A DNA stretch of 64,000 nucleotides from an uncultured Erythrobacter sp. (lineage in GTDB: Bacteria; Pseudomonadota; Alphaproteobacteria; Sphingomonadales; Sphingomonadaceae): NCBI GenBank assembly GCA_947502305.1, contig CANMZA010000001.1, positions 248,001 to 312,000 of the forward strand, written 5' to 3'. The notes under the pieces were generated by a model that saw nothing but the letters and a program-made list of their open reading frames with translations, searched no databases and was not told the DNA's origin. The position numbers and the translations under genes are program-made. Below, piece by piece: positions 2,489 to 52,709 of the stretch; the stretch's first letter is position 1; every line of letters starts with the position of its first letter.

Positions 2489-3883
2489 ATGACAATATCA
2501 AGGCCGAATTGGGGGGTAATCGCCCTCTTGCGCAAGCAAAGTGCGGGGTTGTTCCGCGTCTTTGCGGTGCTGGGACTGATTGCGATTTATCCTGCGGCAA
2601 CTGCATCGAGCAATGAGACCTTTGAAGGTGTCGCCAGTTGTGCGGGTTCGACCTGCCACGGGCGCGCAGAAGGCAATGGCGCGGTCGTGCGTCAGGATGA
2701 AATTGCGACATGGCAAGAGCCGTCCTCTGCAAGCGGCGCGCATAGCCGCGCTTACGCCGTCCTCGCCGGGCGGCGGGGCCAGCAAATCGCCAGCAGTCTA
2801 GGGTTGGGGCCTGCAACGCAAGCGACCGAATGTCTCGGTTGCCATGCGACTTTTGCTCCTTCGGCGCAGCGCGGCGATCGTTTTCAGCTTTCCGATGGTG
2901 TTGGTTGTGAAAGCTGCCACGGCGCCTCCGGTGGGTGGCTGGCGGAGCATTATGCCCGGCCTGCCACGCATGCTTCTAATGTTTCAAATGGCCTGGCGCC
3001 GCTTGAGAACCCTCAGGCGCGGGCGAATGTTTGCCTCGATTGTCATTATGGTTCTGCGAAGACGGGGCAGTTTGTAACTCACTCAATGATGGCCGCTGGT
3101 CATCCGCGTGTATCATTCGAACTCGATTTGTTCAGCGCGTTGCAGCAGCATCACGATATTGATGACGATTACACATCGCGCAAACGCAAGCCCAATGCTG
3201 TGCGTTTCTGGGCTGTTGGTCAGGCGGAGGCGGTGCGCCGCGCGACCAGCCTGTTTGCGCAACCGAAATTTGGGATGGAAGGGGCGTTCCCGCAATTGTA
3301 TTTTTACGATTGCCATAGCTGCCACCGCGAAATCCAAGATGCGGATCAGCGTCGTCTGACGTTTGAAACCAATCCGGGGCGCCCTATTCCGTTTGGCAAT
3401 CCACCGTTTAATGATGAAAATATCATCATGCTCTCTGCGGTTGCGGGCGCGTTGGTGCCTGGCCAAGCGGAAAATTTCCGCACCGCCAGCCGCAATTTCC
3501 ACCGTGCGATGGGTGATGGCAGTCCGGCTGCTGCGCGTGAAGCGGCTGGCATGATGGCGCAGCGGGCGCGGGCGCTTTCCAATGCGTTGAGCCAGCGCGC
3601 TTACATCGATGCCGATGCATTCCGTGTGATTGAGATCATCGGGGCCAATGCAACCCGTGCGCGGTACACCGATTATTCTGGGTCGGTGCAGGCGGTGATG
3701 GCGATTGACACTCTGCTCAATGGCTTGGTCACAAATGGACGGGTTACGGCCGGGGCGGCCGCAGGAATCCGCGCGAATATCAATCGCGCCTATGCCGCAG
3801 TGGAAGAGCCAAATGGTTACAAACCGGCTGATTTCCGCACAGCGATTAACTCGGCGACTACCGCCATTCGAAGGTTGCAATAA
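2489..3883 (+). CDS. Periplasmic pentaheme cytochrome c, c554-like
   Basis: 464 residues from ATG 2489, preceded by a G-rich ribosome site. Residues 1-40 form a Sec signal (basic start, hydrophobic LFRVFAVLGLIAIYP, cut near ATAS). Five heme attachment motifs are visible: one unusual CX4CH (CAGSTCH, Cys51) and four CXXCH at about Cys115, Cys140, Cys182 and Cys275. Extra histidines (AGHPR, QQHHD) could be distal ligands. The heme-rich N-terminal half followed by a heme-free helical C-terminus resembles the cytochrome c-554 family. It is the first gene of an operon of four, 2 bases before the next. Likely role: periplasmic electron carrier of the outer-membrane conduit encoded downstream. The longer frame from 2342 is rejected because the signal peptide begins at 2489. 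Confidence 0.82.
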   Translation: MTISRPNWGVIALLRKQSAGLFRVFAVLGLIAIYPAATASSNETFEGVASCAGSTCHGRAEGNGAVVRQDEIATWQEPSSASGAHSRAYAVLAGRRGQQIASSLGLGPATQATECLGCHATFAPSAQRGDRFQLSDGVGCESCHGASGGWLAEHYARPATHASNVSNGLAPLENPQARANVCLDCHYGSAKTGQFVTHSMMAAGHPRVSFELDLFSALQQHHDIDDDYTSRKRKPNAVRFWAVGQAEAVRRATSLFAQPKFGMEGAFPQLYFYDCHSCHREIQDADQRRLTFETNPGRPIPFGNPPFNDENIIMLSAVAGALVPGQAENFRTASRNFHRAMGDGSPAAAREAAGMMAQRARALSNALSQRAYIDADAFRVIEIIGANATRARYTDYSGSVQAVMAIDTLLNGLVTNGRVTAGAAAGIRANINRAYAAVEEPNGYKPADFRTAINSATTAIRRLQ

Positions 3884-3885
3884 AT

Positions 3886-5847
3886 ATGGCCGGGGGGTGG
3901 AAAAACTTAATTGCCGCACCGATGCTGGTGCTCTCTGTTTGCGCGCTAAGCGGATGTGGAGGCGGTGATTCCGCGCCTGCTGGCGGCGGGACTGGCGGGA
4001 CGCCGCCTACGCCTCCTCCGCCCACCCCGCCGGCTACGGGTCAAGTCTTCTCCTTCCCTGCGGCGGAAAGTCTTTCTGCTGCTGATGTTCAGACCGTTAT
4101 CGCCCGTGCGGCCGCTCAGGCGAGTGCGCAGGGTGATGCGGCGGTAATTTCAGTTGTGGACCGGCCCGGAAATGTCCTCGCCGTATTCCGTATGCCTAAT
4201 GCGCCCATGACGGTGAATATTCCCGGTGCGCCCAATGGTCAGAATGCTGATATTCAAAATCTCGACGTTCCGGCAGAGGCGGCTGCAATCGCGAAAGCGA
4301 TAACCGGCGCATATTTGTCGAGCGGCGGCAACGCCTTCTCGACCCGCGTGGCGTCGCAAATTGTACAAGAGCATTTTCCGCCTTCGCCCACCACTTTGGG
4401 GCTGGAAAGCGGGCCGCTATTCGGTGTGCAGTTCAGTCAACTTCCCTGTTCGGATCTTTCTTCGCGCTTTGGTGATGGGATGATTGGGCCTCAGCGTTCG
4501 CCGCTGGGTCTGTCGGCAGATGCGGGCGGCTTTCCACTCTATAAGAACGGTGTGATGGTTGGCGGTGTCGGTGTTGCTGCTGATGGTGTTTACGGCTTCG
4601 ATCCCAATGTCCTCGATGTTGATGTTGATGCGGACGAATCAATCGCATTGGCCGGGACAGTTGGCTTTGAAGCGCCGGTGGAAATCCGCGCTGATCGTAT
4701 TTCGGCTGATGGTACCTCGCTGCGCTTCACTGATGCGACCTATAATGCCTTGAGTGATGTGTCCGGGGCCACCTTTGCGGGCACTGCGGGCGGTCTAGTG
4801 GCAGTGCGCGGTTACACCGATGCCGTGATCCGTTCTGGAGCCGCCTATGGCACCGAAGCATCTGGCATGCGCCCATCGACAGCCGCTGAGTTTTCTAACC
4901 CTGACGCATATGTTTTGACAGACGGCGCAGGAAACAATCGCTTCCCCGTGCGTGCAGGCACTGATGGAGCTGATATCAGCGCGCCTATCACGCAAGCAGA
5001 AGCGACCGCGATTATCGAAGAAGCATTTGCTGTGATGAGCCGGGCGCGGGCGCAAATTCGCCGTCCTCTCGACAGCCCGGCGCAGGTTTCGATCAGCCTG
5101 GTTGATACGCGCGGGCGGATTCTGGGCATTGTGCGTTCACCCGATGCGCCGATTTTTGGCACTGATGTGAGCTTGCAAAAGGCGCGCACGGCGAATTTCT
5201 TCTCCGGTGCGTTCGCCGCCGATGAATTGCTGCTTGGGGAGCGTGAGGTCCCTGAATATGTGGGGCGGGTTCGTTCGTTCCTCGGCGATCCGTCAGCATT
5301 GACCGGGGCATTTGCTTTTGCTGACCGGTCGGGCGGCAATCTGTCGCGGCCTTATTTCCCGGATGGCGAAGTCGGCACACCGCCAGGACCATTGTCGCGC
5401 CCGATTGAACAATTCAATCCATTCTCAACTGGCCTGCAATCGGCGCTTATTCTGCAAAACCTCGAAGAGCATCTGGGCTTTGTTCTGGGCGGGGCGGATG
5501 ACACCAATCGTGGGTGTTCCAAACTGCCGTCGATCGCGGGGCAGGGCACTCGCTTGGACAATGGTATCCAGATTTTCCCCGGCTCGGTTCCGGTTTATCG
5601 CGGCAATGAACTGGTCGGCGGGATTGGTGTTTCGGGCGACGGTATTGATCAGGATGATATGATCAGCTTCCTCGGCCTGCATAATGCAGGGGTGCGCACG
5701 GGTACGATAGGCAATGCGCCCAATGAAATTCGTGCAGACCGTATTGTCGTCACGCTCAATGGGCGGCAAACGCGGCTTCGCTATGTAAACTGTCCATTTG
5801 CGCCGTTCCTGAATGACCCGACGCAGAATGTGTGTGAGGGGCTGTAA
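3886..5847 (+). CDS. Lipoprotein with two GlcG/HbpS-like (DUF336) modules
   Basis: 653 residues. The N-terminus is a lipoprotein signal with lipobox ALSGC (Cys24), followed by a Gly- and Pro-rich linker (residues about 25-50). Two related modules follow, about 55-330 and 360-640. Each begins with an 'A...I...A...A' helix pattern and a strand such as AVISVVDRPGNVLAVFRMP or VSISLVDTRGRILGIVRSPD, and carries the GlcG/HbpS hallmark of a 'GG(I/V)GVxGDG' strand near its end (MVGGVGVAADGVYG; LVGGIGVSGDGIDQDD). HbpS/GlcG proteins can bind heme or cobalamin; here the duplicated domain sits in a multiheme cytochrome operon, so a heme-handling or structural role at the outer membrane is plausible but inferred. 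Stop and next start are 2 bases apart. Confidence 0.7.
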   Translation: MAGGWKNLIAAPMLVLSVCALSGCGGGDSAPAGGGTGGTPPTPPPPTPPATGQVFSFPAAESLSAADVQTVIARAAAQASAQGDAAVISVVDRPGNVLAVFRMPNAPMTVNIPGAPNGQNADIQNLDVPAEAAAIAKAITGAYLSSGGNAFSTRVASQIVQEHFPPSPTTLGLESGPLFGVQFSQLPCSDLSSRFGDGMIGPQRSPLGLSADAGGFPLYKNGVMVGGVGVAADGVYGFDPNVLDVDVDADESIALAGTVGFEAPVEIRADRISADGTSLRFTDATYNALSDVSGATFAGTAGGLVAVRGYTDAVIRSGAAYGTEASGMRPSTAAEFSNPDAYVLTDGAGNNRFPVRAGTDGADISAPITQAEATAIIEEAFAVMSRARAQIRRPLDSPAQVSISLVDTRGRILGIVRSPDAPIFGTDVSLQKARTANFFSGAFAADELLLGEREVPEYVGRVRSFLGDPSALTGAFAFADRSGGNLSRPYFPDGEVGTPPGPLSRPIEQFNPFSTGLQSALILQNLEEHLGFVLGGADDTNRGCSKLPSIAGQGTRLDNGIQIFPGSVPVYRGNELVGGIGVSGDGIDQDDMISFLGLHNAGVRTGTIGNAPNEIRADRIVVTLNGRQTRLRYVNCPFAPFLNDPTQNVCEGL

Positions 5848-5849
5848 CG

Positions 5850-7751
5850 ATGGCGTTTTCCCTCATCCCGCTCGTGCTGCTGTCGCAGCCCTCCGCGATG
5901 GAGGAGGCAGCACCGACGGCTGCTCCACCGCCAGTGCAACAGGGAAGCGAATCAGCAGAAAATAGCGAGGCTGGCCCGGCTGAGGGTTTAAACCAGACGG
6001 CTAAGGCCGATCCAGAGCCACTGGACCGCGACATTATCGAAGGGCGTGAGCGCCCCGGTTTTACCTCAGAATTGCCTGAGGAAATCGAGCAAGAGAACCA
6101 AGGCGCGATCCGCGCGCCGCCGCCGCAAGCCTTCTCTCCTGATCAAGTGCCGATCCCTGATCGCTGGCGTTTGATCGAAGGGCTTGGCATTGTCGAAGAA
6201 GACCTGCTCGATCCCTATAATCAGAACACCTATAAGGGCGACCGCCCGATCAATCGCGAAAAGGTTCCGTGGTTGCCGATTACCGGTGATGACTGGTTCT
6301 TTGTCGCAAACTTGATCAGCGATACGGTTTACGAACCGCGCACATTCCCGATCCCGGTCGGTATCCAAACGACAGAAGATCCGGATCGTCTCGATGTGTT
6401 TGGCGATGATTTCTCGACTGTATTGTCGCAAACCTTCATCGCAGGCTTTGCGCTGCTCAAGGGCAGCACAGCTTATAAGCCGCCAAGCGTAGAATACCGC
6501 CTTACGCTGGCTTACAATGTCAATTACGTCGATGTGCCCGAACGCCGTGTGCTTTTCGTGGAACCATCCAAGGGTAGCGACCGGCTCGATCAATTCCTTG
6601 GCGTGCAAGAAGCCTTCGTCGATTATCACTTCTCACAATATGATAATGACCGGTACGATTTTATCTCGATCCGCGCCGGTATTCAACCGTTTCAGGCTGA
6701 TTTTCGCGGGTTCCTGTTCAATGATCAGCAATTGGGCGTCCGGCTGTTTGGTAACCGCGACAATAACCGTTTCCAATTCAATCTCGCCGCATTTTGGCGG
6801 TTGGAGAAAGACACCAATAGCGGGCTGAATTCGGTTGTTCAAAGCCCGCGCGATGATTTTGTTTTCATTGCCAATCTCTATCGCCAAGATTTCTTGATCC
6901 CGGCGCTAACTAGCCAAATCACGCTTGCCTATAATCGCAATCGTGAGGGCAACGATATTGAGATCGATGATAACGGATTTCCCGTTCGGCCTGCGTTGCT
7001 TGGCGATATTCGCGGGCGCGATTATGACGTGTTCTACATCGGATATAACGCCGATGGCCGAATTGGCCGGATCAACATTACGGCAAGCGCCTATTGGGCA
7101 CTGGGCGAGGATCGCAACAATTTCTTCACCGGCATTCCGGCCGATATCAACGCACAATTTGCTGCCGCTGAGTTGAGCTATGACCGTGATTGGATCCGTT
7201 TCCGTCTGTCGGGCCTCTATCAAAGCGGCGACAGCGATCCTTATGACAATGAAGAAAATGGCTTTGATGCGATTTTCGAAAACCCTGTCTTTGCCGGTGC
7301 GGATACGTCCTATTGGATACGCCAGACAATTCCATTTGCAGGCGGCGGGCGCGCGGTTTCGGTCAATGGCCGCAACGGCATTTTGAACAATCTGCGTTCT
7401 TCGAAAGAGCAAGGCCAGTCAAACTTTAACAATCCGGGTCTGTGGTTAATTGGCGTGGGCGCCGATTTTGACCTAACGCCTGAATTCCGCATCAGCGCAA
7501 ATGCCAATCACCTCTGGTTTGAGGACACAGCGACGCTGGAGAATTTACGGATCGAAGGAAGCATTCCAAGCGAGATTGGCTATGACCTCTCCGCCTCAGC
7601 TATCTGGCGGCCTAAGGCCAATCAGAACATAGTATTCCGCCTGTCGGGCGCCACTCTTATCGGAGGGGATGGGTTCCAGGACCTGTTCGACAATCTCGGC
7701 AACCAGGATGCATTTTATTCTATCCTCGCAAACGTAACGTTGGCTTACTGA
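5850..7751 (+). CDS. Outer-membrane beta-barrel, putative porin of a cytochrome conduit
   Basis: 633 residues. A short signal-like start (MAFSLIPLVLLSQPSA) lacks a basic residue; no upstream in-frame start exists because of a stop at 5835-5837. Residues about 17-110 are Pro/Glu-rich and probably disordered. From about 140 on there are many alternating hydrophobic/aromatic strands with acidic loops, and the protein ends in NVTLAY with a terminal aromatic, as outer-membrane barrels do. The size is close to MtrB-type porins, but I see no MtrB-specific motif. Its stop overlaps the start of the giant multiheme cytochrome by one base (TGATG), so the two are probably made in a fixed ratio. Inference: it forms a sheath for a cytochrome across the outer membrane. 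Confidence 0.65.
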   Translation: MAFSLIPLVLLSQPSAMEEAAPTAAPPPVQQGSESAENSEAGPAEGLNQTAKADPEPLDRDIIEGRERPGFTSELPEEIEQENQGAIRAPPPQAFSPDQVPIPDRWRLIEGLGIVEEDLLDPYNQNTYKGDRPINREKVPWLPITGDDWFFVANLISDTVYEPRTFPIPVGIQTTEDPDRLDVFGDDFSTVLSQTFIAGFALLKGSTAYKPPSVEYRLTLAYNVNYVDVPERRVLFVEPSKGSDRLDQFLGVQEAFVDYHFSQYDNDRYDFISIRAGIQPFQADFRGFLFNDQQLGVRLFGNRDNNRFQFNLAAFWRLEKDTNSGLNSVVQSPRDDFVFIANLYRQDFLIPALTSQITLAYNRNREGNDIEIDDNGFPVRPALLGDIRGRDYDVFYIGYNADGRIGRINITASAYWALGEDRNNFFTGIPADINAQFAAAELSYDRDWIRFRLSGLYQSGDSDPYDNEENGFDAIFENPVFAGADTSYWIRQTIPFAGGGRAVSVNGRNGILNNLRSSKEQGQSNFNNPGLWLIGVGADFDLTPEFRISANANHLWFEDTATLENLRIEGSIPSEIGYDLSASAIWRPKANQNIVFRLSGATLIGGDGFQDLFDNLGNQDAFYSILANVTLAY

Positions 7752-10700
7752 TGTTCGCAAATTTCCGCTCTTTCTCACCGCGATATACGTTGCTCGGCTT
7801 CGCGACGCTCTTACTCGGCGTGTCCGTTTTCCAGTCGGAAACACAGGCCGCTGATAAAGAGACGCCGACCTATCGCGATTATTCGCAAGTGATCGCGGCT
7901 CCTGCGCCAGCGCGTCAGACGCAAGCGGAAATGGACGCAAAATCAGAAGGTTGCTATTCCTGCCACCTTCAAACTGATGCACCGACAATGCACACCACGC
8001 CGGCGGTGCGGTTGGGCTGTACTGATTGTCATGGCGGCAATGCCAGCGTGCGCGGCAATTCTGATCTGCCGCAGGACCATCCTGATTACGTGGCGGCCCG
8101 CGACACGGCGCACGTCTTGCCCAAATATCCCGACAGCTGGCATTTTCCATCATCCGCGAACCCAGAGCGTTCCTATGCTTTGCTCAATCAGGAATCGCCG
8201 GAATTTGTGAAGTTCGTAAACCCATCCGATTACCGCGTGGCACGCGAGGCATGCGGTTCTTGCCACATCCAATCCATCGAAGCTGCCGAGCGTTCGATCA
8301 TGGCGACGGGCGCCATGCTTTGGGGCGGTGCGACCTACAACAACGGTATTTTGCCCTTCAAAAACTACATGCTGGGTGAGGCTTATACGCGCAGCGGCGA
8401 TCCCGCCGTCATTAGCGGCCAAGCCAATGTTATTTCCTCGCCGGGCGATGGAGAGGACGGCGAATTGTCAGACGCACAACGTGCGCGCGGTGTGTTGTCT
8501 GAACTCTATCCATTGCCAACTTGGCACGTCATCCCACCTGCGGATGTATTCCGCGTGTTTGAGCGCGGCGGCCGCACGATCCTGTCGCAATTCCCAGAGA
8601 TCGGCATTCCCAACCCGACCGGACTTATCCAGCGTTTGGAAGAGCCCGGCCGCCCGGATCTAAAACAATCAAACCGCGGCCCGGGCACCGGTCTGCGCGT
8701 GGCAATTCCGGCGCTGAACATTCACAAAACGCGCCTGAATGACCCGTTCACTTGGTTTATGGGCACCAATGATCAGCCGGGCGATTATCGCCATTCCGGC
8801 TGCGCCAGCTGTCATGTGGTATATGCCAATGACCGCGAGCCGCGCCATTCGTTGATTTATGCGCAATATGGACGTGATGGTCAGACGATCACGGTTGATC
8901 CGACAATCAACACTCAGATGCAAGAAGAGCATGGGTATGACAGTCATGGCGGCGGCGATCATGCAGATGACGGCCAAGCAAGTGGTCATGGCGGTCTGCG
9001 CCAACCTGGCGAAAATTACGACGACAACAATGGCGATGGCCACGGCGAAGCGCCAGTACGCGAATCCGGCCACCCGTTGCAACACGTCTTCACCCGTTCA
9101 ATCCCGACATCGCAGTGCATGTCATGCCACATGCACCAGCCCAACATCTTCCTGAACTCCTATCTCGGCTATACGATGTGGGATTACGAAAGCGACGCGC
9201 CAGCGATGTGGCCTGGGCCGGAAAACACTACGCCGCGCCCAGAGGGTATGAGCGATGAGGAATATGAAGAATTCTACCAAACTCAGCGTTTCCCAACCTC
9301 GGAAGAAATCCGCACAATCCTCGACCGAAATCCAGAGGCTGCTGCGGCCAAGGGACTGTGGGGCGATCTCGATTTCCTTCGGAACGTCTATGATCTGAAC
9401 CCGACCTTGGAGCACACGCAGTTCGCCGATTATCACGGTCACGGGTGGAATTTCCGCGCGATCTTCAAACGCGACCGCGATGGCAATATGCTCGATGCTG
9501 ATGGCGAAATTTTACGTCCATCGGAAGAAGGCGATACGCCCGAAGAGGCCGCCTATCACGATGATCGCTGGCGCCAACGGTGGCGGCGCGATGGCGAGGG
9601 ACAGTTTGTAGAACCGGGAACGAATCCGGGCGAATCCGTTCATATGATGAGCATCCATGCTGAGATTGGGATGCAATGCGTCGATTGCCACTTTGAGCAA
9701 GACACACATGGCAACGGCTTGATCTATGGCGAAGTCGCCAATGCGATTGAGATCGGGTGTAAGGATTGCCACGGCACCGCTGATGAATATCCAACTTTGC
9801 GCACCAGCGGTCCTGCTGCTCCTCCAGAAGGGCACAATCTTGCCCTGCTGAGGAATCCAGATGGTCAACGCCGTTTCGAATGGATGGAAAATGAAGAAGG
9901 ACGCCGCGTCCTGATCCAGCGTTCACTCGTTGATCCAGAACTGCAGTGGGAAATGAGCCTCGTTCGCGATTCCGTCGACCCATCAACGCCGGTTTTCAAC
10001 GCCCGGGCCGCGCGGTCGAAATTAATGAGCCGTTACGGCGCAGAAACTGGCAATTTTGAATTTGGCAGCGGCATCGAAGAGGGCGACCGCGCCCACCAAG
10101 ATGAAGAGATGGCGTGTTTCACATGTCATCTGTCTTGGACAACCAGCTGTGGTGGTTGCCACTTGCCGATTGAGGCGAACTGGAAAACCAAATCGCATCG
10201 TTATGAGGGCGGATCGACCCGCAACTTTGCGAGTTACAACCCGCAGGTCGCGCGTGATCAGATGTTCCAATTGGGCGTGCACCAGACGACTAAGGGCAAC
10301 CAGACCGCTCCGGTTCGTTCTTCCTCTGCGCTGGTTCTGTCATCGACCAATATCAACCGCGAACGCATCTATGTGCAACAGCCGCCGATCTCAGCGATTG
10401 GTTTCTCCAGCCAAGCCTTTGCGCCGCATTTCCCGCATACGGTTCGTTTGAACGAGACAAAAACCTGCACGGATTGTCACCTTTCCGAAGAAGAAGACAA
10501 CAATGCGATCATGTCGCAATTGCTCTTGCTCGGTACGAATTACGTGAATTTTGTCGGCATGCATGCTTGGACAGGTTTGGAAGGCGGGCTGACGGCTGTT
10601 CGCGTAACCGAATATGACGAGCCGCAAGCTGTCATTGGTTCTTACCTGCATCGTTATTCGACGCCAGATTATTGGCGCATGCATGTCGAAGACAATGGGC

Positions 10701-12040: not shown

Positions 12041-12245
12041 GCTAGCGGCGCTCAACATTTGGATTAGCTGTCTGAACTCTTTTAGCGTCGGATGCTTTTC
12101 GAAGAGTGAGCTCAAGCGCGGGCCTGCTTTGCAAATAGCCATTCCAACCGAGCGAGAACGCTTACGGGAATGCGCAGAGGCGCAGTAAGGTTATGGCACA
12201 TGAGGGGCCTGCGCTCATTTGCTTTGAGCGCTTTGGTATTCGCCT

Positions 12246-13127
12246 TCAATCGCGCTCAGCAAAGAGGCCTTGCATCATTGGGCGCAAATGATCTTCGAAC
12301 CGGGCCAATGTCTGCCAATGACCAACAGGTTGGAAATGCGAGACTAACGTCCCATCACGCCACAGATGCAGACTATAAAAGGGCGGCTCTGCCGCGACAA
12401 TTGGGCGCTGATCCGCCACATCAATGTCCATTGGCCGCAAATCCAGCGACACAGCCGGCGCGACCGCTGGCGTCACGCTAACCGGAATTCCTTCGACCAT
12501 GGAATGCAAAGGGCGGTGCAAATGCCCTGCCTGAATAGAAATGATCTGCTTGTGTCCAGCCACAGTTTCATGAAACCGCTTAAACCACGCCTCGCTTGGC
12601 TTTGGGTCCATCCAATCAATGCCGGCCACGACCGGTGGGTGGTGAACAAACAGGACAGTCGGCGTATCGGGATGCGCCGCCAATTCCCGCGCCAGCCAAG
12701 CCGCGCGAACCTCACAAAAGGCTCCGCCATGTCGGCCCGGCTCAAATGAATCCAAACACAGCACCCGCAGCGCATCGTCACCTTCGCCGCAAGGGATCGC
12801 AAATTGCGCAAATCCATCGGCGGTTGGGCAATCGGGGAACGCGCGTAGCATTTCCTCACGATTGTCGTGATTGCCGGGGATGACATAGGTCGGAAACGGG
12901 CAATCTTCGACCAATGCGCGTATCCGGGCATAACAATCGGCTTGCCCGCCATCTGCCAGATCGCCCGACAGGATCAGCATGTCCGGCAATACGGACTGGC
13001 TCAGCAAATGCCCTAAGACATTGCGAAATCGTACAAAGTTAAATTCGTTCTCACCCGCTTCAGGCTCGAAACCAATATGGGTGTCGGTAATCTGTGCGAT
13101 CAGCACACCGCGTCGCTCGCTGTCCAT
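12246..13127 (-). CDS. Class III cyclic-nucleotide phosphodiesterase-like metallophosphoesterase (CpdA/Icc-like)
   Basis: 293 residues. All calcineurin-like metal-site motifs are present in order: DTHIG, GDLADGG, GNHDN, a HHPP motif and GHLHR. This pattern with a length near 290 is typical of CpdA/Icc enzymes that hydrolyse cAMP; cGMP or other phosphodiesters are possible. The start at 13127 is 2 bases after the stop of the FHA-multiheme gene; the longer frame to 13295 would overlap that gene. It is the last gene of the minus-strand operon whose first gene carries two cyclic-nucleotide-binding domains, so a local role in resetting that signal is an attractive inference. Confidence 0.8.
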   Translation of the reverse strand: MDSERRGVLIAQITDTHIGFEPEAGENEFNFVRFRNVLGHLLSQSVLPDMLILSGDLADGGQADCYARIRALVEDCPFPTYVIPGNHDNREEMLRAFPDCPTADGFAQFAIPCGEGDDALRVLCLDSFEPGRHGGAFCEVRAAWLARELAAHPDTPTVLFVHHPPVVAGIDWMDPKPSEAWFKRFHETVAGHKQIISIQAGHLHRPLHSMVEGIPVSVTPAVAPAVSLDLRPMDIDVADQRPIVAAEPPFYSLHLWRDGTLVSHFQPVGHWQTLARFEDHLRPMMQGLFAERD

Positions 13128-13129
13128 AC

Positions 13130-14908
13130 TTACCGTCTTAGACTGCTCAAAAGCGCCGCGACACTCTGATTGCCGCCATTTTCGGGATGATCCTCTGGCC
13201 GCCAAGGCATGGTCGGTGTGTGATAACCATGACACATTGCGCAGCTGGATGGCGTGATTTCCTCGGTCTTGACCGCCGTTTCGCCCAAATGGCAATCACG
13301 GCAACTTTCAAGATTCGGGATCAGCAAATCGGTCGCTTCGCCAGACGTATCTGTCTCGTGGCAATCGGTGCATTCGGCCACGTCATCGCCGTGTGCCGCA
13401 TGGTCGAAATATCCGCCCAGCAAGAACCTATCTGGCAGATTTACCGGCGTTAAATCACGTCTACCATTGGTGCTGGTCGGGATGTGGCATTCGCCGCAAA
13501 CGCCGGTTGGCTCCAATGCGCGATTGATCGCGATATAGGCGCTCATCGGGCGACCGAAATTGGTGTAATAGGCACCGCCGCGGGCGAATTGCCCTGGGCG
13601 TCCGCGCCCCGAAACGACAGCGCGGCGAGGGCCGCGATCCATTGTTGCGAGGTCGGCCATCAAATCATCAACATCGCCGTGACGCAATGACCGAAAATTG
13701 GGTCCATTTCGGTCGAAAACAAGGCTGTGGCAGCTTTCGCATGCCGGTTCCATTTCGACCGGAGCAAATCCGACGCCGTCATCCTCTTCCTCATGGCAAT
13801 TGCTGCATTCTAGCGGCGCACCATAGCCCGAAAGGCTGAGCGCCATGCGCGCTACCCCGCCGCTTTCAGACATATGAATGTCATGCGGAAAGATCAGTCC
13901 GCTTTTTTCAGGCACTTGGCTATCGAGAGAAACGCGCTTTGGTTCCTCAGCGAAATGCTCGGTGTAGAATTGCGGGCGGAATTGCGGGTGTTTCTTGCCG
14001 AAATCAGATGCATTTCCGAAGGACGCGTTGGTCAACCGGGTGTCGAGTTCATTATGGCAGTCTGAGCAGAATTGTTCGCTCGCCGCTTCTAACTCCACGG
14101 GGCCTTCATGTTCTGTATGGCAAGATACACAGCCCAGCGGGCCTTCTTTCCCGAGGGTTTCCGCGATTTGCCACTGCAACGCATCGCCGCTGCTGAGCGG
14201 GGCCATGCCTTCTGCCAAGCGTGGCGCTTCGGCGTGATCGCCCAATTCTTCATGGCATGTCAGGCACGTTTCATCTTGGACGGAGACGAACGGAGTGGTG
14301 TGACACGCCTCGCAGTTCTCTTCCAAGTCGTGATGCGCCATGCTTAGTTCCCCGGTGCTCCACGATGCATCGAATAGCACTTGACCCTCTGCGATATTGT
14401 CAGGGTCATTTTCGACCGGCGCCCGGGTCAAATGAGTGATGACCGGGATGGACAAAAGCAGGACTAAAATCGCAGCAGAAAAACCCCAGGCCATCAAGCG
14501 CTTGCTAGGCATGGCGCTTGCCAAAGCGAAACCTTGTAACGGCTCGCTCGCGGCTTTGGGTTTGTCGCGGTTTTGGATGACGATCTGAACTGGACCGTCA
14601 CCCTCGCGTGAAACTACCATTTGCGCTGGGCCAACGGCAATCTCTGCGCCGCTGTTTGGATCTATTGTCGCGTCAGTGACTGCGCTGCCATCAACGTCGA
14701 ATGGCAATTCGCCCAAAGATGTCGCCCTGAGCATCCCGCGTCCAGCGTCGGACAGGCTCAAATGCCGTAATTCAACCGACAGATCGGCCAGGTGAATATC
14801 GCTGGCGGGATCGCGCCCGATGATCAATTCGGATTGATCAACCGAGCGGTCACGCACGATTTCACGACCAGATTTCGCCTTTGCGATGGTGCGGATCAGG
14901 AATGCCAT
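13130..14908 (-). CDS. FHA domain - transmembrane helix - 10-heme cytochrome c fusion
   Basis: 592 residues. Residues 1-115 resemble an FHA domain (IIGRDPASDIHLADLSVELR at about 29-48, then HLSL). The usual Ser of the 'VSRxH' motif is replaced (VELRH), so phosphothreonine binding may be altered. Residues about 139-160 (WGFSAAILVLLLSIPVITHL) form a membrane helix. The remainder carries ten CXXCH motifs, Cys199, 215, 260, 281, 368, 390, 471, 513, 536 and 556, in a cytochrome c3/NapC-like arrangement. Topology should be FHA in the cytoplasm and hemes in the periplasm. It follows the b-type membrane protein by 10 bases in the same operon, a natural order for electrons leaving the membrane. I do not recognise this fusion as a characterised protein. 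Confidence 0.82.
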   Translation of the reverse strand: MAFLIRTIAKAKSGREIVRDRSVDQSELIIGRDPASDIHLADLSVELRHLSLSDAGRGMLRATSLGELPFDVDGSAVTDATIDPNSGAEIAVGPAQMVVSREGDGPVQIVIQNRDKPKAASEPLQGFALASAMPSKRLMAWGFSAAILVLLLSIPVITHLTRAPVENDPDNIAEGQVLFDASWSTGELSMAHHDLEENCEACHTTPFVSVQDETCLTCHEELGDHAEAPRLAEGMAPLSSGDALQWQIAETLGKEGPLGCVSCHTEHEGPVELEAASEQFCSDCHNELDTRLTNASFGNASDFGKKHPQFRPQFYTEHFAEEPKRVSLDSQVPEKSGLIFPHDIHMSESGGVARMALSLSGYGAPLECSNCHEEEDDGVGFAPVEMEPACESCHSLVFDRNGPNFRSLRHGDVDDLMADLATMDRGPRRAVVSGRGRPGQFARGGAYYTNFGRPMSAYIAINRALEPTGVCGECHIPTSTNGRRDLTPVNLPDRFLLGGYFDHAAHGDDVAECTDCHETDTSGEATDLLIPNLESCRDCHLGETAVKTEEITPSSCAMCHGYHTPTMPWRPEDHPENGGNQSVAALLSSLRR

Positions 14909-14918
14909 GACGCCAGCC

Positions 14919-15785
14919 TCACCAATAGAAGAACACGCTCACGACATGCGCGAGCAGTGCGGCGAGCAAAGCAATCGTCGCCGGAATATGAATGAACAGC
15001 CACACTTCAAGCAATGCTTTGTTGCGAAGGTGGCGGCGAATTTGGCCGAGTTGCTCGGCGCGTTTGGTGAGCAAGGCATGGACGGCTCCTGCCGCCTCAC
15101 TGTCGCCTGCGGAAATCTGCGATAGGGCGCGGGCGGTCTTGCAACCAGGATATGCCCCGGTCAGGCGGCCAAAGGCGCCGCCGGAAAAGACGTCCTGACC
15201 CAAGGCGCCGATCACCAGATCGCATTCTGCCCGGCCAAGCGGCTGCGCTGCGCTGTCCAATTGCCTGTCTGTCACAGACAATTCTTCGAGCATGTCGCCG
15301 CGTGTCATTTCTTTGCGATTGGCGGACAATGTCTTGGGAAGTTTTGCATAGACTACCACGCCATAGATGCCGGTGATGATTACAATCAGCATCAAGAAAT
15401 AGGCAAGCGTATGGACGTTCCAGCCGATCTGAAATCCGGTGTGCAAAGTGCCCACCACAATCAGCGCCAGACCGAGATAAATATGCGCGCTGGTCCAGGC
15501 TTTCAGGCTCCATGCGCCCTCGGAAATCTTGCGTTTGCGCACACCCAAGAGCGAAAGCCAAACGATCAGCAAAAGCCCGATTGTTCCGAGAGTGTATCCA
15601 TACCAGGATCCGCCATTGGGACGGGGGTCTTGATCAATCAGGGCATAGCCAAGCCCGCTTACAAGGCACAGCAGGAGCGCCACCCAAAGCCAGCGATACC
15701 CGCGATATTTCAGAAAGCTGACGTGATCGGCATTGCGCCGTTCCTCCGCCTGCTTGAACCTTTTGTTGTCAGCTACGCTCGCCAT
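14919..15785 (-). CDS. Multi-pass membrane protein, probable b-type cytochrome
   Basis: 288 residues with about five membrane helices, at residues 30-50, 61-82, 97-121, 124-147 and 258-288, and a soluble loop between the fourth and fifth. Several histidines lie inside helices (SAHIYLG, GTLHTGF, NVHTLAY, FIHIPAT, LLAHVVS), spaced as expected for axial ligands of one or two b hemes, as in cytochrome b561 or ferric-reductase-like domains. The ATG overlaps the stop of the upstream flavoprotein by one base (TGATG). Inference: it links the cytoplasmic Fe-S flavoprotein to the periplasmic multiheme protein, perhaps through quinone. A precise family name is not possible by eye. Confidence 0.65.
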   Translation of the reverse strand: MASVADNKRFKQAEERRNADHVSFLKYRGYRWLWVALLLCLVSGLGYALIDQDPRPNGGSWYGYTLGTIGLLLIVWLSLLGVRKRKISEGAWSLKAWTSAHIYLGLALIVVGTLHTGFQIGWNVHTLAYFLMLIVIITGIYGVVVYAKLPKTLSANRKEMTRGDMLEELSVTDRQLDSAAQPLGRAECDLVIGALGQDVFSGGAFGRLTGAYPGCKTARALSQISAGDSEAAGAVHALLTKRAEQLGQIRRHLRNKALLEVWLFIHIPATIALLAALLAHVVSVFFYW

Positions 15786-18304
15786 CAGTCTTCCACATCC
15801 TCTGTGAGTTTTGCGAAATTGATGAATTTGTCAGGTGCGACGCGAATGGCCGCGCCGGTTGGGCAGGCGCGCACGCATGATGGGCCGCCTTCGATCCCGG
15901 CACACATGTCGCATTTGACTGCTTTCTTCGCGACGTTCGGCTCGCTGTTTTCCTTGCGCCATGAATAAGACGCCTGACCTGGGCCTGGGCCAGTGCCAAA
16001 CATCAACCAACTCAATAGGCTCGGTTTTTCAGGCGGCACCGGTTCCATATTAATGACGCCATATGGGCAATAGGTCTTACAATTACCGCAGCCGATGCAG
16101 GTTTCGGCATTGATTGACACTTCGCCATCCGCGCCTCGCTGAATGGCGTTAGGCGGGCAATCCGTCATGCAATGCGGATGTTCGCAATGCCGGCAAGAGG
16201 TCGGCACGTGCAGATAAGCAAAGCTCTTGCCCGCTTCACGATCCAGCCGCGAAAGCCCATCGTGAGAATCCGCGCAGGCTTTCTCGCAATTGTCGCAGCC
16301 AATGCACAATCTTTCATCGATGAGCAGTGCGTCGGTCGCTTCGCCCATGCCTTGATCGAACAGAAATGCTGCGGTGCCAGAGAAGTCATTGAGCGAATTG
16401 TCGCCCTTGCTCGATTGGCTTTCGATTTCTTCGTTGGAACGGCGTCTTTCGGCCATCACTTCCAATGCTCGCTCGCGCAATTGCGGCTTTTTATCAAGCA
16501 GCGCGAGGAAACCTTCGCCGGGTATGTGGATCACTTCGGATTTGATTGAGGCGCTTACGCTTGAGGTGCGCTTTGACCCGTCAATCACAGCCATTTCGCC
16601 GAAGAAATTGCCTGCCGGGATCAGAGAAAGAAAGACGGGTTTGCCATCCATTTCCTTCTCAACCTTCATCGAGCCAATGCGGCAGATATAGAGGTCTTTG
16701 TCGTCATCACCCTCGGTAATAACGGTTGCGCCCGCCGGGATTTCGCGTGTTTCCGCGCTCGCCACAATGGGGGCGATGTCATCCGGCGTCAGGCCCGACC
16801 CAAAGATTTGCAGGATCTGACGCTCGATTGAAATACGGGTAACTTCCGCTTCCGCTTCGGGCGAAGATTTGATCAATTTCAATGCAGCTTTGCGCGACAA
16901 TTCGACGACCACCACATCTTCTGCGGCGCGAATGGTTGCGCCCCGGCGGCGGCCAGAAATCAGGCCTACTTCGCCAAAGATCGACCCTTGCCCAATCGGC
17001 ACGGTGATCGATGGATTGTTGGGATTGACCTCCACCGCAACGCTACCTTGCGCAATCGCGAATAGCGAAGATCCCGGCTCATCACGGCGGAAAATAGGTT
17101 CGCCCGGTTCAAATGCGCTGCAGATAGAATCGAGCATCAATTCGCGCATTTGCAAGGTCGATAGACCTTTGAAAATGCCGACTTGTTTCTGATAAACGTC
17201 CAACCAGTGATCGACGCCTTTATTGCCCGGAAGGTTTGCAAAAACCTTCTCCAACAACGGCTCATCCGCCGGTTTCACCGCAGTGCCGGTCGACAGATAT
17301 TCGATGACATCATAGCCCTGATTCATACAGTGCTTGATCAGCGGATAACCCGCCAGCGCGCCAATAACGAAAATGCCCGAATTGGTGGTTTCAAATTCAG
17401 CGGACAATTTGGGGAATGCACTGCGATCTTCGCTAGTGAACTCCACACCCATGCTTTCGATGAATTTGCGCGACGGTTGCGAACCGATCCGCGTGATGAT
17501 CATGTCGCAGGGAATGACCTCTTGGCCGGTTTCTGTTTCGACCACCATTTCGCCGTCACGCACCTCTGCAGGTGACGTGCGATAGGCGATTTTCAGATGC
17601 CCTTCGCTGTCCGCGCTTTCCAAGTCTGTGGCGTTCTTGATTTTGGCTTTCGCAAAATCGGTGCCGCGATTGAGGATGGTGACATTGTTGCCCAGCGCTG
17701 GATCGGTTGCCAGCCCCATTGCATTTTCAATCCCGGCATCGCCGGTGCCAACCACAATAACGTTTTTATCGACGTGATCTTCGGGGTCATCCAGCTGGGG
17801 CGTGATCATCGGATGATCCGCACCCGGACAACGCAACTTGTTCGGATTACCCTGTGTGCCGATAGCCAGCACGATCGTCTCCGCTCGGATGACGTCGCCG
17901 CTTTTCAGCGTGATCGTAAAATCGCCCTTCTGCCCTTCGACTTTTGTCACTTCGGCGTTCAGTTTGGTGTTGATCTCAAAGTTTTGAACGTCGCCCTCAT
18001 AGGTGGGCATGCGTTCATCATGGATTCCGCAGTGTTTGTTCCAAATTCCAAGGATTCGCTCGCGCGTTCCTTCCTCGAATTCCATACCTTCCTGGCCGCC
18101 TTCTTCGTAACCGCCAGCCCGCAATTGCAGGTCAGAGGGCGTCGCCATCACGTGCTTGCCCTTTTGGTATTTAAAGATGGTGTCGGAAAGATGGTCCGTT
18201 TTTTCCAGCAGGACATGCGACATGCCGCGCATTGCGGCTTGACCCGCAGCGCTCATCCCGGCTGGACCGGAGCCAACTATGGCGACTTTATACAAATCCC
18301 CCAA
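15785..18304 (-). CDS. FAD/NAD(P) oxidoreductase fused to two cNMP-binding domains and a 4x[4Fe-4S] ferredoxin
   Basis: 839 residues from TTG 18304. Residues 1-350: thioredoxin-reductase-like flavoprotein with an FAD Rossmann motif (VAIVGSGPAG, about 8-17) and a second nucleotide motif (VIVVGTGDAG, about 182-191). About 380-485 and 500-610: two cyclic-nucleotide-binding folds, each with an FGE...R phosphate-cassette (FGEVGLISGRRRGAT; FGEMAVIDGSKRTSS). About 660-839: NrfC/DmsB-type ferredoxin with sixteen cysteines in four groups (CIGCDNCEKAC; CRHCEHPHCMTDC; CIGCGNCKTYC; CDMCAGIEGGPSCVRAC). The first TTG-GGG-GAT codons lie 5 bases after a strong AAGGGGGGG site, which I prefer over the upstream ATG at 18391, only 20 bases from the divergent gene. 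Likely role: cytoplasmic electron entry or exit of the locus, gated by a cyclic nucleotide. Confidence 0.85.
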   Translation of the reverse strand: MGDLYKVAIVGSGPAGMSAAGQAAMRGMSHVLLEKTDHLSDTIFKYQKGKHVMATPSDLQLRAGGYEEGGQEGMEFEEGTRERILGIWNKHCGIHDERMPTYEGDVQNFEINTKLNAEVTKVEGQKGDFTITLKSGDVIRAETIVLAIGTQGNPNKLRCPGADHPMITPQLDDPEDHVDKNVIVVGTGDAGIENAMGLATDPALGNNVTILNRGTDFAKAKIKNATDLESADSEGHLKIAYRTSPAEVRDGEMVVETETGQEVIPCDMIITRIGSQPSRKFIESMGVEFTSEDRSAFPKLSAEFETTNSGIFVIGALAGYPLIKHCMNQGYDVIEYLSTGTAVKPADEPLLEKVFANLPGNKGVDHWLDVYQKQVGIFKGLSTLQMRELMLDSICSAFEPGEPIFRRDEPGSSLFAIAQGSVAVEVNPNNPSITVPIGQGSIFGEVGLISGRRRGATIRAAEDVVVVELSRKAALKLIKSSPEAEAEVTRISIERQILQIFGSGLTPDDIAPIVASAETREIPAGATVITEGDDDKDLYICRIGSMKVEKEMDGKPVFLSLIPAGNFFGEMAVIDGSKRTSSVSASIKSEVIHIPGEGFLALLDKKPQLRERALEVMAERRRSNEEIESQSSKGDNSLNDFSGTAAFLFDQGMGEATDALLIDERLCIGCDNCEKACADSHDGLSRLDREAGKSFAYLHVPTSCRHCEHPHCMTDCPPNAIQRGADGEVSINAETCIGCGNCKTYCPYGVINMEPVPPEKPSLLSWLMFGTGPGPGQASYSWRKENSEPNVAKKAVKCDMCAGIEGGPSCVRACPTGAAIRVAPDKFINFAKLTEDVED

Positions 18305-18309
18305 TCCAT

Positions 18310-18318
18310 CCCCCCCTT
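18310..18318 (-). promoter_or_regulatory. Strong ribosome binding site deciding a TTG start
   Basis: On the minus strand AAGGGGGGG ends 5 bases before the TTG at 18304. The TTG gives an N-terminus running directly into the FAD Rossmann strand, as is normal for this family. It also leaves about 107 bases to the divergent TPR gene for promoters. Confidence 0.6.
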
Positions 18319-18411
18319 GGATAGATTTCACACAAGGAGCACCATAAAGAAAGCGCTCACCATTGCCAGAGACAATTGCCGTTTTCTGCACCGGTTGCTA
18401 GTGAAAAACTT

Positions 18412-19452
18412 ATGACAACTGATGCAAATGACACGCCGCAGGCGCAAACAGCGCCTGATTCAACGCCAGAATCCACCGAAACGTCGAATCAGGGGGCGGC
18501 TCCAATCACCGAACAAACCTCTGGGGGAAGTTCTGGCGGTAAAGCCGGATGGCTCTTGCTTGGCGCGGCGGCTGTTCTGGCGGCTGGGTCCATCGGCTAT
18601 AATGTTTATGAGGGCGGGGACGCGGCAAGCGAAACCGAGGTCGCCGCCGATGCTCCTGCGTCGCTTGATGAATTGCGCGCGGCGGCGGATAGTTCCAGCG
18701 ATGATGCAGGGCCGTGGAGCGAATTGGCCTTTGCCCATTTTGAGCGCGGCGAATTTGGCGACGCGGCGCAGGCCTATGAACGCGCGGTCGCTATCGACGA
18801 TAGCGAAGCGGTTTTGTGGTCAGCATTGGGTGAAGCACGGGCCTATGCGAGCGAACGCGACCCTTTGCCTGCCGCAGCATTAGAAGCGTTTGAACGCGCT
18901 ATCGAACTTGACCCAAGTGATCCGCGGGCACGCTATTTCATGGCCGTGAAACAAGACTTGGAAGAGGATCATGAAGGCGCGATTTCCTCGTGGCTTGCTC
19001 TGCTTTCCGAAACGCCGCCGGGCGCCCCCTGGGAAGGCGATTTGGTGCGAACAATTCAGCAGGTCGGCGCGATCAACGATATTGATATTGAGCAGCGTTT
19101 GGCGACTGTAATGGAAGCACGAACACCGCAAGTTCTGGTGCCCGGTTCTGGCGAAGCGGCCGGCGATGCTGCTTCGGAAAATCTGCGTGGACCCTCGGCT
19201 CAGCAAGTTGCAGAAGCCAGCCGGATGACGCCGGGAGAGCAGGACAGTATGGTGGCGGGAATGGTCGCCAGCCTTGAGGCGCGTCTTCAGGATGAGCCGC
19301 AAAACCTTGATGGTTGGGTGATGCTGATGCGCAGCCGCATGACTTTGGGTGAAACCGGCAAAGCGCGCGATGCGTTGGCGGCGGCGATTGCGGCCAATCC
19401 GGGCGAGGAAACAGAATTGCGCGCACAAGCGGAGCAACTCGGCATCCGTTAG
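18412..19452 (+). CDS. CcmI/NrfG-like TPR protein, membrane-anchored
   Basis: 346 residues from ATG 18412. After a polar N-terminal tail there is one membrane helix (about residues 44-64), then TPR repeats (PWSELAFAHFERGEFGDAAQ; ALEAFERAIELDPSDPRARY) and a segment with the CcmI/CycH-type wording 'YFMAVKQDLEEDHEGAISSW', followed by 'PPGAPWEGDLVRTIQQVG'. CcmI/NrfG proteins hold apocytochrome c for heme ligation. The C-terminus has another TPR pair (NLDGWVMLMRSRMTLGETGK). It is divergent from the Fe-S flavoprotein operon with about 25 heme motifs encoded nearby, so a dedicated apocytochrome chaperone is likely. The N-terminal heme-lyase half of classical CcmI is missing. Ends before a bidirectional terminator. 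Confidence 0.7.
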   Translation: MTTDANDTPQAQTAPDSTPESTETSNQGAAPITEQTSGGSSGGKAGWLLLGAAAVLAAGSIGYNVYEGGDAASETEVAADAPASLDELRAAADSSSDDAGPWSELAFAHFERGEFGDAAQAYERAVAIDDSEAVLWSALGEARAYASERDPLPAAALEAFERAIELDPSDPRARYFMAVKQDLEEDHEGAISSWLALLSETPPGAPWEGDLVRTIQQVGAINDIDIEQRLATVMEARTPQVLVPGSGEAAGDAASENLRGPSAQQVAEASRMTPGEQDSMVAGMVASLEARLQDEPQNLDGWVMLMRSRMTLGETGKARDALAAAIAANPGEETELRAQAEQLGIR

Positions 19453-21422: not shown

Positions 21423-21534
21423 AGCGGCTGAGTTTAAGCCCGAAAGTGAGCGTATGCCAAGCGCCCTTCCCAAGATGGAGGCTTTGCGATAAATTGCGTT
21501 TCGCAACTGAGAACGTTTGGCGGGAATTGTAAAA

Positions 21535-22026
21535 ATGGCGAGTTTCATCCTCAATGGTCAGCCGGTGACGGTCGATGCCGATCCGGCGATGCCAATCCTA
21601 TGGGTTGTGCGTGAGAAAGTCGGGCTTTCGGGCACCAAATTTGGTTGCGGCATTGCCCAATGCGGTGCCTGCACCGTGCATTTGGATGGACAACCCGTGC
21701 GCAGCTGCTCCACCTCGATCTCTCAGGCAGAAGGCCGCGAAGTGACGACGATCGAGGGTATCGCTGGGCCGGATGGTGAGCTGTCGAAAGTTCAGCAAGC
21801 TTGGGTGAGCGAACAAGTGCCGCAATGCGGATATTGCCAGTCTGGACAGATTATGAGCGCGACGGCGCTGCTGCGCGATAACCCTTCGCCTAGCGATGAT
21901 GATATTGACGCGGCCATGTCTGGCAACATTTGCCGTTGCGGGACCTACACTCGCATTCGCCGCGCTATCAAAGTTGCCGCTGGGCAAGAGACCGCGCGCA
22001 CCGAAGCCGAAGGTGAGGAGGCCTAA
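21535..22026 (+). CDS. 2Fe-2S subunit of a molybdenum hydroxylase (isoquinoline 1-oxidoreductase alpha-like)
   Basis: 163 residues from ATG 21535, which gives the family-standard MASFILNGQ start. Two [2Fe-2S] sites are visible: plant-type ferredoxin Cys pattern ([15 protein letters not shown], with Cys after LDGQPVRS) and the helical site ([10 protein letters not shown], then [13 protein letters not shown]). This is the small iron-sulfur subunit of the xanthine oxidase superfamily; it passes electrons from the Mo site of the partner encoded 3 bases downstream to an outside acceptor. There is no separate FAD subunit gene, as in two-subunit isoquinoline or aldehyde dehydrogenases that use cytochrome c, and a cytochrome c follows. 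Confidence 0.92.
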
Positions 22027-22029
22027 ACC

Positions 22030-24282: not shown

Positions 24283-24305
24283 AGCGGTACTAAAGGAAAA
24301 CAGTG

Positions 24306-24773: not shown

Positions 24774-24806
24774 TTCGCGGCCACGTCGCCGCTTTTGGAG
24801 TCGCGA

Positions 24807-47501: not shown

Positions 47502-52709
<5,208 letters not shown>

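Follow-up and report, generated by a model that had tools for sequence, protein, structure and literature searches.

A conserved multihaem cytochrome gene cluster in Erythrobacter and other Pseudomonadota with a predicted NAD(P)H-linked electron line and an AlgE/OprD-like pore

The Gene Cluster

A stretch of 64,000 nucleotides from an uncultured Erythrobacter sp. (GenBank assembly GCA_947502305.1, contig CANMZA010000001.1, positions 248,001 to 312,000 of the forward strand), referred to here as the window, contains two facing operons which code for multihaem cytochromes, a predicted outer-membrane pore, a membrane cytochrome b and a flavoprotein with cyclic-nucleotide-binding domains. In a preliminary description, these genes were considered to encode a complete candidate conduit from the cytoplasm to the cell surface. 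The analysis presented here supports the inner half of such a line, while the step across the outer membrane was not borne out. The genes are designated B to K in locus order, and coordinates are window positions unless another stretch (L and a number) is named; sampled genomes are designated by G and a number.

On the plus strand, the genes B, C, D and E are tightly packed, with gaps of 2, 2 and -1 bases according to open reading frame listing and translation. B (2489..3883, or with a start at 2342) codes for a pentahaem cytochrome c with four CxxCH motifs and one CX4CH motif, a signal-like N-terminal stretch and a match to the cytochrome c554 family (PF13435). C (3886..5847) codes for a lipoprotein with the lipobox LSGC, a Gly/Pro-rich linker and domains matching the Pfam family "Haem degrading protein HbpS-like" (PF03928). 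The product of D (5850..7751) is predicted from a structure model and a fold search to be an 18-stranded, AlgE/OprD-like outer-membrane pore, the N-terminus of which was left unmodelled. E (7751..12040) codes for a decahaem cytochrome with ten CxxCH motifs, a signal-peptide-like N-terminus lacking a lipobox, and C-terminal LVIVD repeats (PF08309).

The operon I-H-G-F on the minus strand faces these genes; I and H overlap by 1 base, and H-G and G-F are separated by 10 and 2 bases. I (15785..18391, with GTG at 18391, GTG at 18331 and TTG at 18304 or 18295 as start codon candidates) codes for an FAD/NAD(P) oxidoreductase joined to two cyclic-nucleotide-binding domains and a ferredoxin part with 16 conserved cysteines. 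H (14919..15785) codes for a membrane cytochrome b with two WX3HX13H motifs, the four histidines of which would be expected to hold two haems b. G (13130..14908) codes for a protein with an FHA-like domain, one hydrophobic helix and a decahaem domain with ten CxxCH motifs in cytochrome c7/c3 repeats, and F (12246..13127, ATG start) for a calcineurin-like, SpdA/CpdA-like phosphodiesterase identified by its metallophosphoesterase family match. Divergent from I, the gene J (18412..19452, plus strand) codes for a CcmI/CcmH-type TPR protein of cytochrome c maturation (PF23914, 50.9 bits; cut-off 42), in agreement with its earlier description as CcmI-like. Gene content and coordinates of both operons were likewise confirmed by open reading frame listing, translation and Pfam. 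The cyclic-nucleotide-binding domains of I, the HbpS-like character of C, the c554 affiliation of B and the PCC3/PCC4-type histidine motifs of H are additions to the preliminary description.

The haem-c motifs add up to 25 (5 in B and 10 each in E and G), the number that had been given as approximate before. Their conservation was followed in row sets composed of frames of more than 75% of the query length and more than 100 bits. All ten motifs of G (45 rows) and all five of B (18 rows) lie within columns that are at least 93% conserved, and exactly ten CxxCH motifs were counted in 43 of 45 G rows and in 43 of 44 E rows. Since both motif columns and motif counts are conserved, the haem motifs are not due to chance. 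A search of the strain's own genome, which covered PF14537 (c3-type) as its only multihaem family, gave a single match above the cut-off, located in G; weaker ones lie within G and E, and one more occurs at another site in a frame containing a stop.

The Inner Half: I, H and G

In Pfam searches, I was shown to contain a pyridine-nucleotide oxidoreductase, two PF00027 domains and 4Fe-4S domains, with PF13247 matched at 41.9 bits (cut-off 26.2), and in a family search it resembles YpdA/TrxR. The 16 cysteines, which correspond to four clusters, and both Rossmann motifs are conserved among the I rows. After the second dinucleotide motif, an asparagine (34 of 36 rows) is followed by an arginine (36 of 36) and an acidic residue is lacking, a pattern that we take to reflect a preference for NADPH. 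Both cyclic-nucleotide-binding cassettes have the arginine in all 36 rows, and the glutamate is conserved in all 36 rows of one cassette and in 35 of the other; I may be gated by a cyclic nucleotide.

For H, the residues W97, H101, H115, W262, H266 and H280 are invariant in 23 rows. At the position of the SGXXG motif given for transmembrane helix 4 of the PCC3/PCC4 inner-membrane protein, the window protein has TGIYG; the first residue is serine in 19 and threonine in 4 of the 23 rows, and both glycines are invariant. Weak matches were obtained to PF01794 (7 of 23 rows) and PF01292 (20 of 23), and a PDB sequence search with the H profile returned nothing useful. I adjoins H in all mapped loci showing both genes, Duganella excepted, and in G034 and G153 the two are fused into single proteins of 1118 and 1123 amino acids. 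These fusions (L095:3052-6423, 1123 amino acids; L096:5850-9206, 1118 amino acids) are followed by a cytochrome with nine CxxCH motifs, with outer-membrane genes missing. A search for relatives of the G153 fusion across its order found 2 of 48 genomes at an E value of 1e-60, namely G153 and G034, and no porin-bearing relative. In G187 (L107:3568-7135), an FAD/NAD/2Fe-2S reductase gene is located directly upstream of one for an H-like HX13H membrane protein, which is followed by a six-haem cytochrome; by its gene arrangement this is another putative case of an NAD(P)H feed to a multihaem cytochrome.

G contains one haem per 36 residues across the haem span and per 59 in the whole protein (592/10), which by haem density makes it a wire-like candidate. 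A PDB sequence search with G gave weak c7/HAO-type matches only, and lipobox-like matches were present in 7 of 45 rows. Of the features ascribed to G earlier, the helix and the ten haems were recovered, while the FHA domain of the window protein gave only a weak score (PF16697 at 27 bits; cut-off 33.2); PF00498 (FHA) is present in the G proteins of L054, L058 and L123. Judged by sequence, the inner half is supported as an electron line from cytoplasm to periplasm, in accordance with the path that had been read from the gene order of the minus operon and including the I-H fusion in two genomes.

The Outer Half: B, C, D and E

A lipobox is present in 34 of 36 C rows. For B, 14 of 18 rows matched the lipobox scan; however, seven of these matches are the first haem motif, six are Duganella rows without a lipoprotein-like context and one lies near an overlong start, so that no assignment was drawn from the scan.

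For AlphaFold, two plasmid rows were dropped from each alignment, leaving 27 of 29 sequences for D and 31 of 33 for E. The D model has 18 strands, most of them at a predicted local distance difference test (pLDDT) value of 70-89, with a mean of 63, a predicted template modelling score (pTM) of 0.67 and a disordered stretch in the first 131 residues. The best fold match was AlgE (5d5d; Z 26.7 over 360 residues, 3.1 Angstrom), followed by Occ pores at Z of about 25, at identities of 10-15%. D has no Pfam match at an E value of 0.1, and a PDB sequence search gave nothing useful. Neither of the two lists of 50 displayed fold matches for D includes MtrB, an absence which by itself excludes nothing. 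The pairing of barrel and cytochrome had been regarded as a porin-cytochrome unit; this is weakly supported, in that a barrel is predicted but not one of the MtrB type. Since D is AlgE/OprD-like with 18 strands, the proposed complete conduit lacks a demonstrated step for crossing the outer membrane.

Between the window and Duganella, best-segment identities are 55-56% for E, 47-49% for D, 46-47% for C, 40-43% for H, 35-41% for B, 37-39% for I (partial) and 30-32% for G, so that E is the most constrained part of the set. PDB sequence searches with E, both as protein and as profile, returned nothing useful, and a stretch of 51 residues matches ExtM at 2.3e-15.

Distribution, Gene Order and Co-occurrence

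Searching species genomes with G identified 35 loci, among them representatives of Erythrobacter, Qipengyuania, Croceibacterium, Porphyrobacter, Novosphingobium, Chakrabartia and Duganella. Erythrobacter longus DSM 6997 and strain NAP1 (L007, L010) belong to the carriers. When the other genes were searched by tblastn, E was matched in 33 of these loci, D in 32, C in 31, B in 28, H and I in 34 each, F in 29 and J in 27, some of the matches being partial. Most of the misses concern short contigs or stretch ends (including L012, L015, L019, L022, L025, L027 and L036), and in six Duganella stretches tblastn found no match to F or J. Duganella has a single-strand run of the order H-G-C-D-E-B-I, and in Chakrabartia both blocks lie on one strand. 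Single-strand runs were also identified in distant genomes, with the order I-H-G-B-K-C-D-E in G376 and I-H-G-C-D-E-B in G368. In the family of G154, E is present in 19 of 147 genomes, once as a 93-residue fragment; the stretches from eight of these and from G154 have a single-strand run of the order I-H-G-C-D-E where covered, with no B match. G470, of the same family, has two C-like genes in tandem (L128:4851-9062).

Among 398 Pseudomonadota genomes, E matched in 12, with G244 being partial, and D matched in 12, adding G154, in which the contig ends just after D. A 12-haem protein of G244 (793 amino acids, L059:9044-11425) was examined as an E orthologue and rejected, the match being distant and covering 14% of the length; G244 has no match to D or H. 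H was found above 100 bits in 15 of the 398 genomes, namely the 12 D carriers, G001, G034 and G153, and five further matches are weak; the overlap of D and H has a hypergeometric probability of 1.6e-20, a value that ignores shared ancestry. Of 29 genomes examined for C, the 12 that carry D, and no others, have it. As a counterweight to shared ancestry, only 8 of the 19 genomes sampled from the window's own family carry the set, and carriers span five families. The named loci and the sampled genomes overlap at least once (L026, G301) and are not fully independent sets.

In G396, G349 and G214, the halves I-H-G-F and B-C-D-E are located on different contigs or more than 600 kb apart, and both are retained. 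Together with the co-occurrence and the single-strand runs elsewhere, this supports the view that the genes form one functional set, as had been assumed from the window alone. The set is also found on plasmids: 13 records contain E at more than 80% coverage (12 from Sphingobium and one from Sphingopyxis), and four more match the repeat end only. All 17 records were typed, 13 as non-mobilizable, three as conjugative and one as mobilizable; the two that were opened are conjugative. The opened Sphingobium plasmid carries the full set, and in the stretch of Sphingopyxis pMC4 only B-C-D-E, J and gdhA were seen.

Neighbouring Genes

Five of 16 clades have a gene for a CHASE2 adenylate/guanylate cyclase close to the cluster (L055:11808-13670, L053:5110-7176, L057:2169-4388, L061:4641-6737 and, from Novosphingobium, L018:3-2030; two identified by Pfam, the rest by blastp), and in L055 it is located directly between F and E. 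The clade counts depend on the flanks taken and on frame picking, with real genes hidden in high-GC stretches being repaired by tblastn. L053 and L057 also hold genes for a Na/H antiporter and an MscS-type protein with cyclic-nucleotide domains.

K (19573..20928, minus strand) codes for glutamate dehydrogenase, a recurrent neighbour the membership of which is uncertain. Besides the window, it recurs in 7 of 16 clades and in G349 at varying positions: within the run in G376, directly upstream of B on pMC4, where it is annotated as NADP-specific, and further at L054:4333-5865 and L105:7139-8494. It might serve the supply or use of NADPH, which is a guess. In several Erythrobacter loci, K adjoins genes for xanthine-oxidase-type [2Fe-2S] and molybdopterin subunits with an XdhC-type gene (window 21517-25754). 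A candidate family resembling aldehyde dehydrogenase (L026:2669-4105) was identified in three clades, and in Duganella L031 ccmF is a near neighbour of the cluster. Further along the window, a CobN/magnesium-chelatase-type gene is located at 49136-52720, and from 63436 onward a reaction-centre gene marks the entry into a photosynthesis cluster, which agrees with the aerobic phototroph setting proposed earlier.

Proposed Mechanism

The domains, motifs, gene linkage and joint occurrence described above are directly supported. From them a tentative reading, which we rate at slightly less than an even chance, is that the cluster encodes an NADPH-fed electron export system linked to cyclic nucleotides. 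I would oxidise NADPH via FAD and pass the electrons through four [4Fe-4S] clusters to H, in which two b haems would take them across the inner membrane. The haem-dense G, with its inner-membrane anchor, would serve as a periplasmic wire, from which B, where present, and E would relay electrons to the outer membrane; there E, with the lipoprotein C and the pore D, might act on an acceptor outside the cell or within the pore. F would lower the nucleotide bound by I, and the nearby cyclase of some genomes would raise the same nucleotide. Cofactor occupancy, NADPH preference, direction and regulation are what we infer in this scheme. Outward flow from NADPH is preferred because the flavin/Fe-S subunit accompanies H and the layout resembles the domains of NADPH oxidase and ferric reductase.

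Several points weigh against this export system. Its direction is assigned by analogy only, and the published PCC3/PCC4 model has electrons flowing inward (PMC5566968). By arithmetic for an ideal barrel on the predicted strand count, the lumen of D is about 23 Angstrom, compared with about 38 for 26 strands, so that the pore is estimated to be too narrow for a whole decahaem protein or an MtrA-type wire. E has a lipobox in 1 of 44 rows, and since it is lacking in the other 43, a surface position of E is unproven. E has one haem per 84 residues across the haem span and per 143 in the whole protein (1429/10), and its haem domain is 60-62% identical between the window and the beta/gamma rows; a protein that is both haem-sparse and conserved suggests an enzyme or a specific docking partner, and by these features E would resemble an enzyme more than a wire. 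The model of the E haem domain is of low confidence (pLDDT 39, pTM 0.27). B and F are not universal, and the G protein of Duganella L031 has no FHA match. G001, G034 and G153 (the last 76% complete) contain I-H-G without matches to C, D or E, which makes the inner half the more general module. A sugar porin unrelated to haems had been named beforehand as a finding that would speak against a conduit; D does have a substrate-pore fold, yet it was never seen without H in the 398 genomes.

If the export reading is true, marine and soil heterotrophs that are common and not known to us as metal respirers would possess an outer-membrane reducing system driven by NADPH, and outer-membrane reduction would be tied to cyclic-nucleotide signalling. 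The compact, jointly inherited gene set with its plasmid copies would be suited for testing extracellular electron use by aerobic bacteria. The stronger claim of a new outer-membrane redox class is unlikely; this would be a cyclic-nucleotide-gated line from NADPH to the surface, plasmid-borne and patchy in aerobic heterotrophs, with a conserved decahaem/LVIVD enzyme, an HbpS-like lipoprotein and a narrow AlgE-type pore replacing the MtrB-type sheath.

Alternative Explanations

The alternatives to this export system are partly compatible with one another, so that the likelihoods expressed for them need not add up to certainty. Possible, though rather less than probable, is a periplasmic reductase with its own pore, in which electrons would pass along I-H-G(-B)-E to E as a soluble enzyme, D would be a selective channel for substrate or product, and C would bind at the surface, with no electrons crossing the outer membrane. 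This would fit the 18-stranded, AlgE/OprD-like D (best Z 26.7), the conserved, haem-sparse E without a lipobox, the 51-residue similarity to ExtM of selenite/tellurite operons and the presence, by its name, of a Croceibacterium selenioxidans strain among the carriers. However, the LVIVD repeat is known from a paper dealing with cell-surface proteins (PMC2447325). C also looks like a lipoprotein, and no clear substrate pathway is apparent among the families occurring in at least 3 of 16 clades.

It is quite improbable that the cluster serves electron uptake. In this reading, an outside donor such as reduced iron or manganese would deliver electrons to E or C, from where they would pass inward through H into the quinone pool, and I would make NADPH by reversed electron flow. 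Against this, H is accompanied by an NAD(P) flavoprotein that contains an Fe-S relay, the reduction of NADP by such donors is energetically uphill, and the named carriers are, as we assume, ordinary aerobic heterotrophs; moreover, the Mn(II) oxidation of Erythrobacter SD-21 was assigned to haem peroxidases, as far as the title of a reference tells. In favour of uptake, inward flow was proposed for PCC3 and PCC4, which have the same membrane-protein type, and a Mn(II)-oxidising Erythrobacter is listed as a PCC3 carrier (PMC5566968, in its passages on these systems).

We also doubt strongly that the cluster is no more than a PCC4 or PCC3 system, which supplementary tables might already list. The PF13247 gene upstream, both WX3HX13H motifs, the porin with several multihaem cytochromes and the Fe-S/membrane-protein fusions would be expected of such a system, while residues per haem, haem counts and petB/petC-type subunits differ according to the parts of the published descriptions compared below.

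A reductive capture of iron or haem, in which electrons at the surface would be spent on ferric iron reduction or on the breakdown of haem by the HbpS-like C, is very improbable. It would account for the HbpS-like match of C and for the company of C and D in the 29 genomes examined, but HbpS-like domains are functionally mixed, and no TonB receptor or iron-uptake family was seen, by eye and in a few Pfam scans, among the families shared by at least three clades.

The release of excess photosynthetic electrons, proposed in the preliminary description and suggested by the location of the locus 44 kb from reaction-centre genes, is the least credible alternative and as a general function largely refuted, since reaction-centre genes do not track the cluster (4 of 12 carriers compared with 3 of 14 non-carriers) and since the cluster is also found in Duganella and Sphingobium, which we do not know as phototrophs, though such a role in the window's strain alone is possible.

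Comparison with Known Systems

Open-access literature searches found nothing that names this gene set, and no open-access full text combining LVIVD or an FHA domain with a multihaem cytochrome was found. Close published relatives exist in PCC3 and PCC4 (PMC5566968). The comparison with these systems was made by published description and not by named reference sequences.

In Cyc2, a haem is fused to a barrel, and the absence of CxxCH motifs in all 36 D rows speaks against a Cyc2-like fusion. MtrCAB, MtoAB and PioAB work in a similar manner to the arrangement proposed here, with an inner-membrane donor, a periplasmic decahaem protein and an outer-membrane barrel. They differ in that scores here are below the family cut-offs and D has 18 strands, compared with about 26 for the MtrB/PioB barrel, and MtrCAB-type conduits are fed by a CymA-type quinol donor, unlike the NAD(P)H flavoprotein feed here. 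D gave no match to TIGR03509 (MtrB/PioB, cut-off 240.05) up to an E value of 0.1. None of 15 genomes searched with this family exceeded the cut-off, and neither did any of 14 control genomes, so that the search had no positive control. In G154, a cluster carrier, an MtrB/PioB-like match below the cut-off lies elsewhere (C22:42952-45120). For TIGR03508 (MtrA/DmsE, cut-off 192.2), B, G and E scored 20.3, 18.2 and 17.4 bits, and for TIGR03507 (OmcA/MtrC, cut-off 209.3) G scored 15.3 bits, with none listed for E or B. At these family cut-offs, the earlier remark that no Mtr or Pio proteins are recognised stands. The Geobacter Ext system (ExtM/N/O) is related by the 51-residue similarity of E to ExtM, the full NF040943 score being 55.9 bits (cut-off 800).

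AlgE and the OprD/Occ pores share the predicted fold of D, but no genes for alginate or other polysaccharides were seen in the cluster. H resembles ferric reductase/NADPH oxidase and cytochrome b561 in its two HX13H motifs and its weak PF01794/PF01292 matches. Ferric reductase and NADPH oxidase have an NAD(P)H flavin donor; here the flavin/Fe-S subunit is separate, and electrons would continue into multihaem cytochromes.

For the inner-membrane protein of PCC3 and PCC4, two WX3HX13H motifs on two helices were described as the signature, and the model is one of inward electron flow (PMC5566968). The passages of that paper on PCC3 and PCC4 mention no LVIVD, HbpS, FHA or cyclic-nucleotide domains. 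PCC3 cytochromes are characterised there as repeat-rich with 22-39 residues per haem, most of the porins as having more segments, up to 42, and MtrA homologues as having about 33 residues per haem. In the cluster, E has 143 and the whole of G 59 residues per haem, and the haem span of G alone 36. When compared by hhalign with an alignment of three membrane proteins (from G147, G042 and G187), the H profile scored 98.7% (2e-16), and the weak H matches in G147, G042 and G366 adjoin cytochromes of 24, 21 and 24 haems, while that in G246 lies about 2 kb from a 34-haem frame. By these features, and not by a named reference, the loci of G147, G042, G366 and G246 are labelled PCC3-like, and H is a profile-level relative of the three aligned membrane proteins. 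Such cytochromes with 21-34 haems are located in L106, L108, L109 and L110, those of L106 and L108 directly after the HX13H membrane protein.

For PCC4, cytochromes of 4, 5 and 10 haems were described, all periplasmic with no extracellular one (PMC5566968), and a further description includes petB/petC-type subunits (PMC13264449). As far as these accounts go, the likeness to the cluster consists of an Fe-S gene with PF13247, placed immediately before the gene for a membrane protein that carries both WX3HX13H motifs, together with a porin and multihaem cytochromes. The Fe-S gene and the membrane protein are also joined in both, here in G034 and G153 and there in Oceanospirillum beijerinckii, where the two are annotated as one gene (PMC5566968). 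The cluster differs in its haem numbers of 5, 10 and 10 (four CxxCH and one CX4CH, 10 and 10), in the 1429-residue LVIVD decahaem protein E and in that petB/petC-type subunits were not seen. It works like a trans-envelope electron line, with no established place in a named family; by sequence, its membrane protein is of the type found in PCC4 and has the same kind of Fe-S partner, and it belongs to one superfamily with the membrane proteins of PCC3-like loci. The cluster thereby provides the PCC3/PCC4-type membrane protein with an evident partner for NAD(P)H, a point of relevance for the direction of electron flow in those untested systems.

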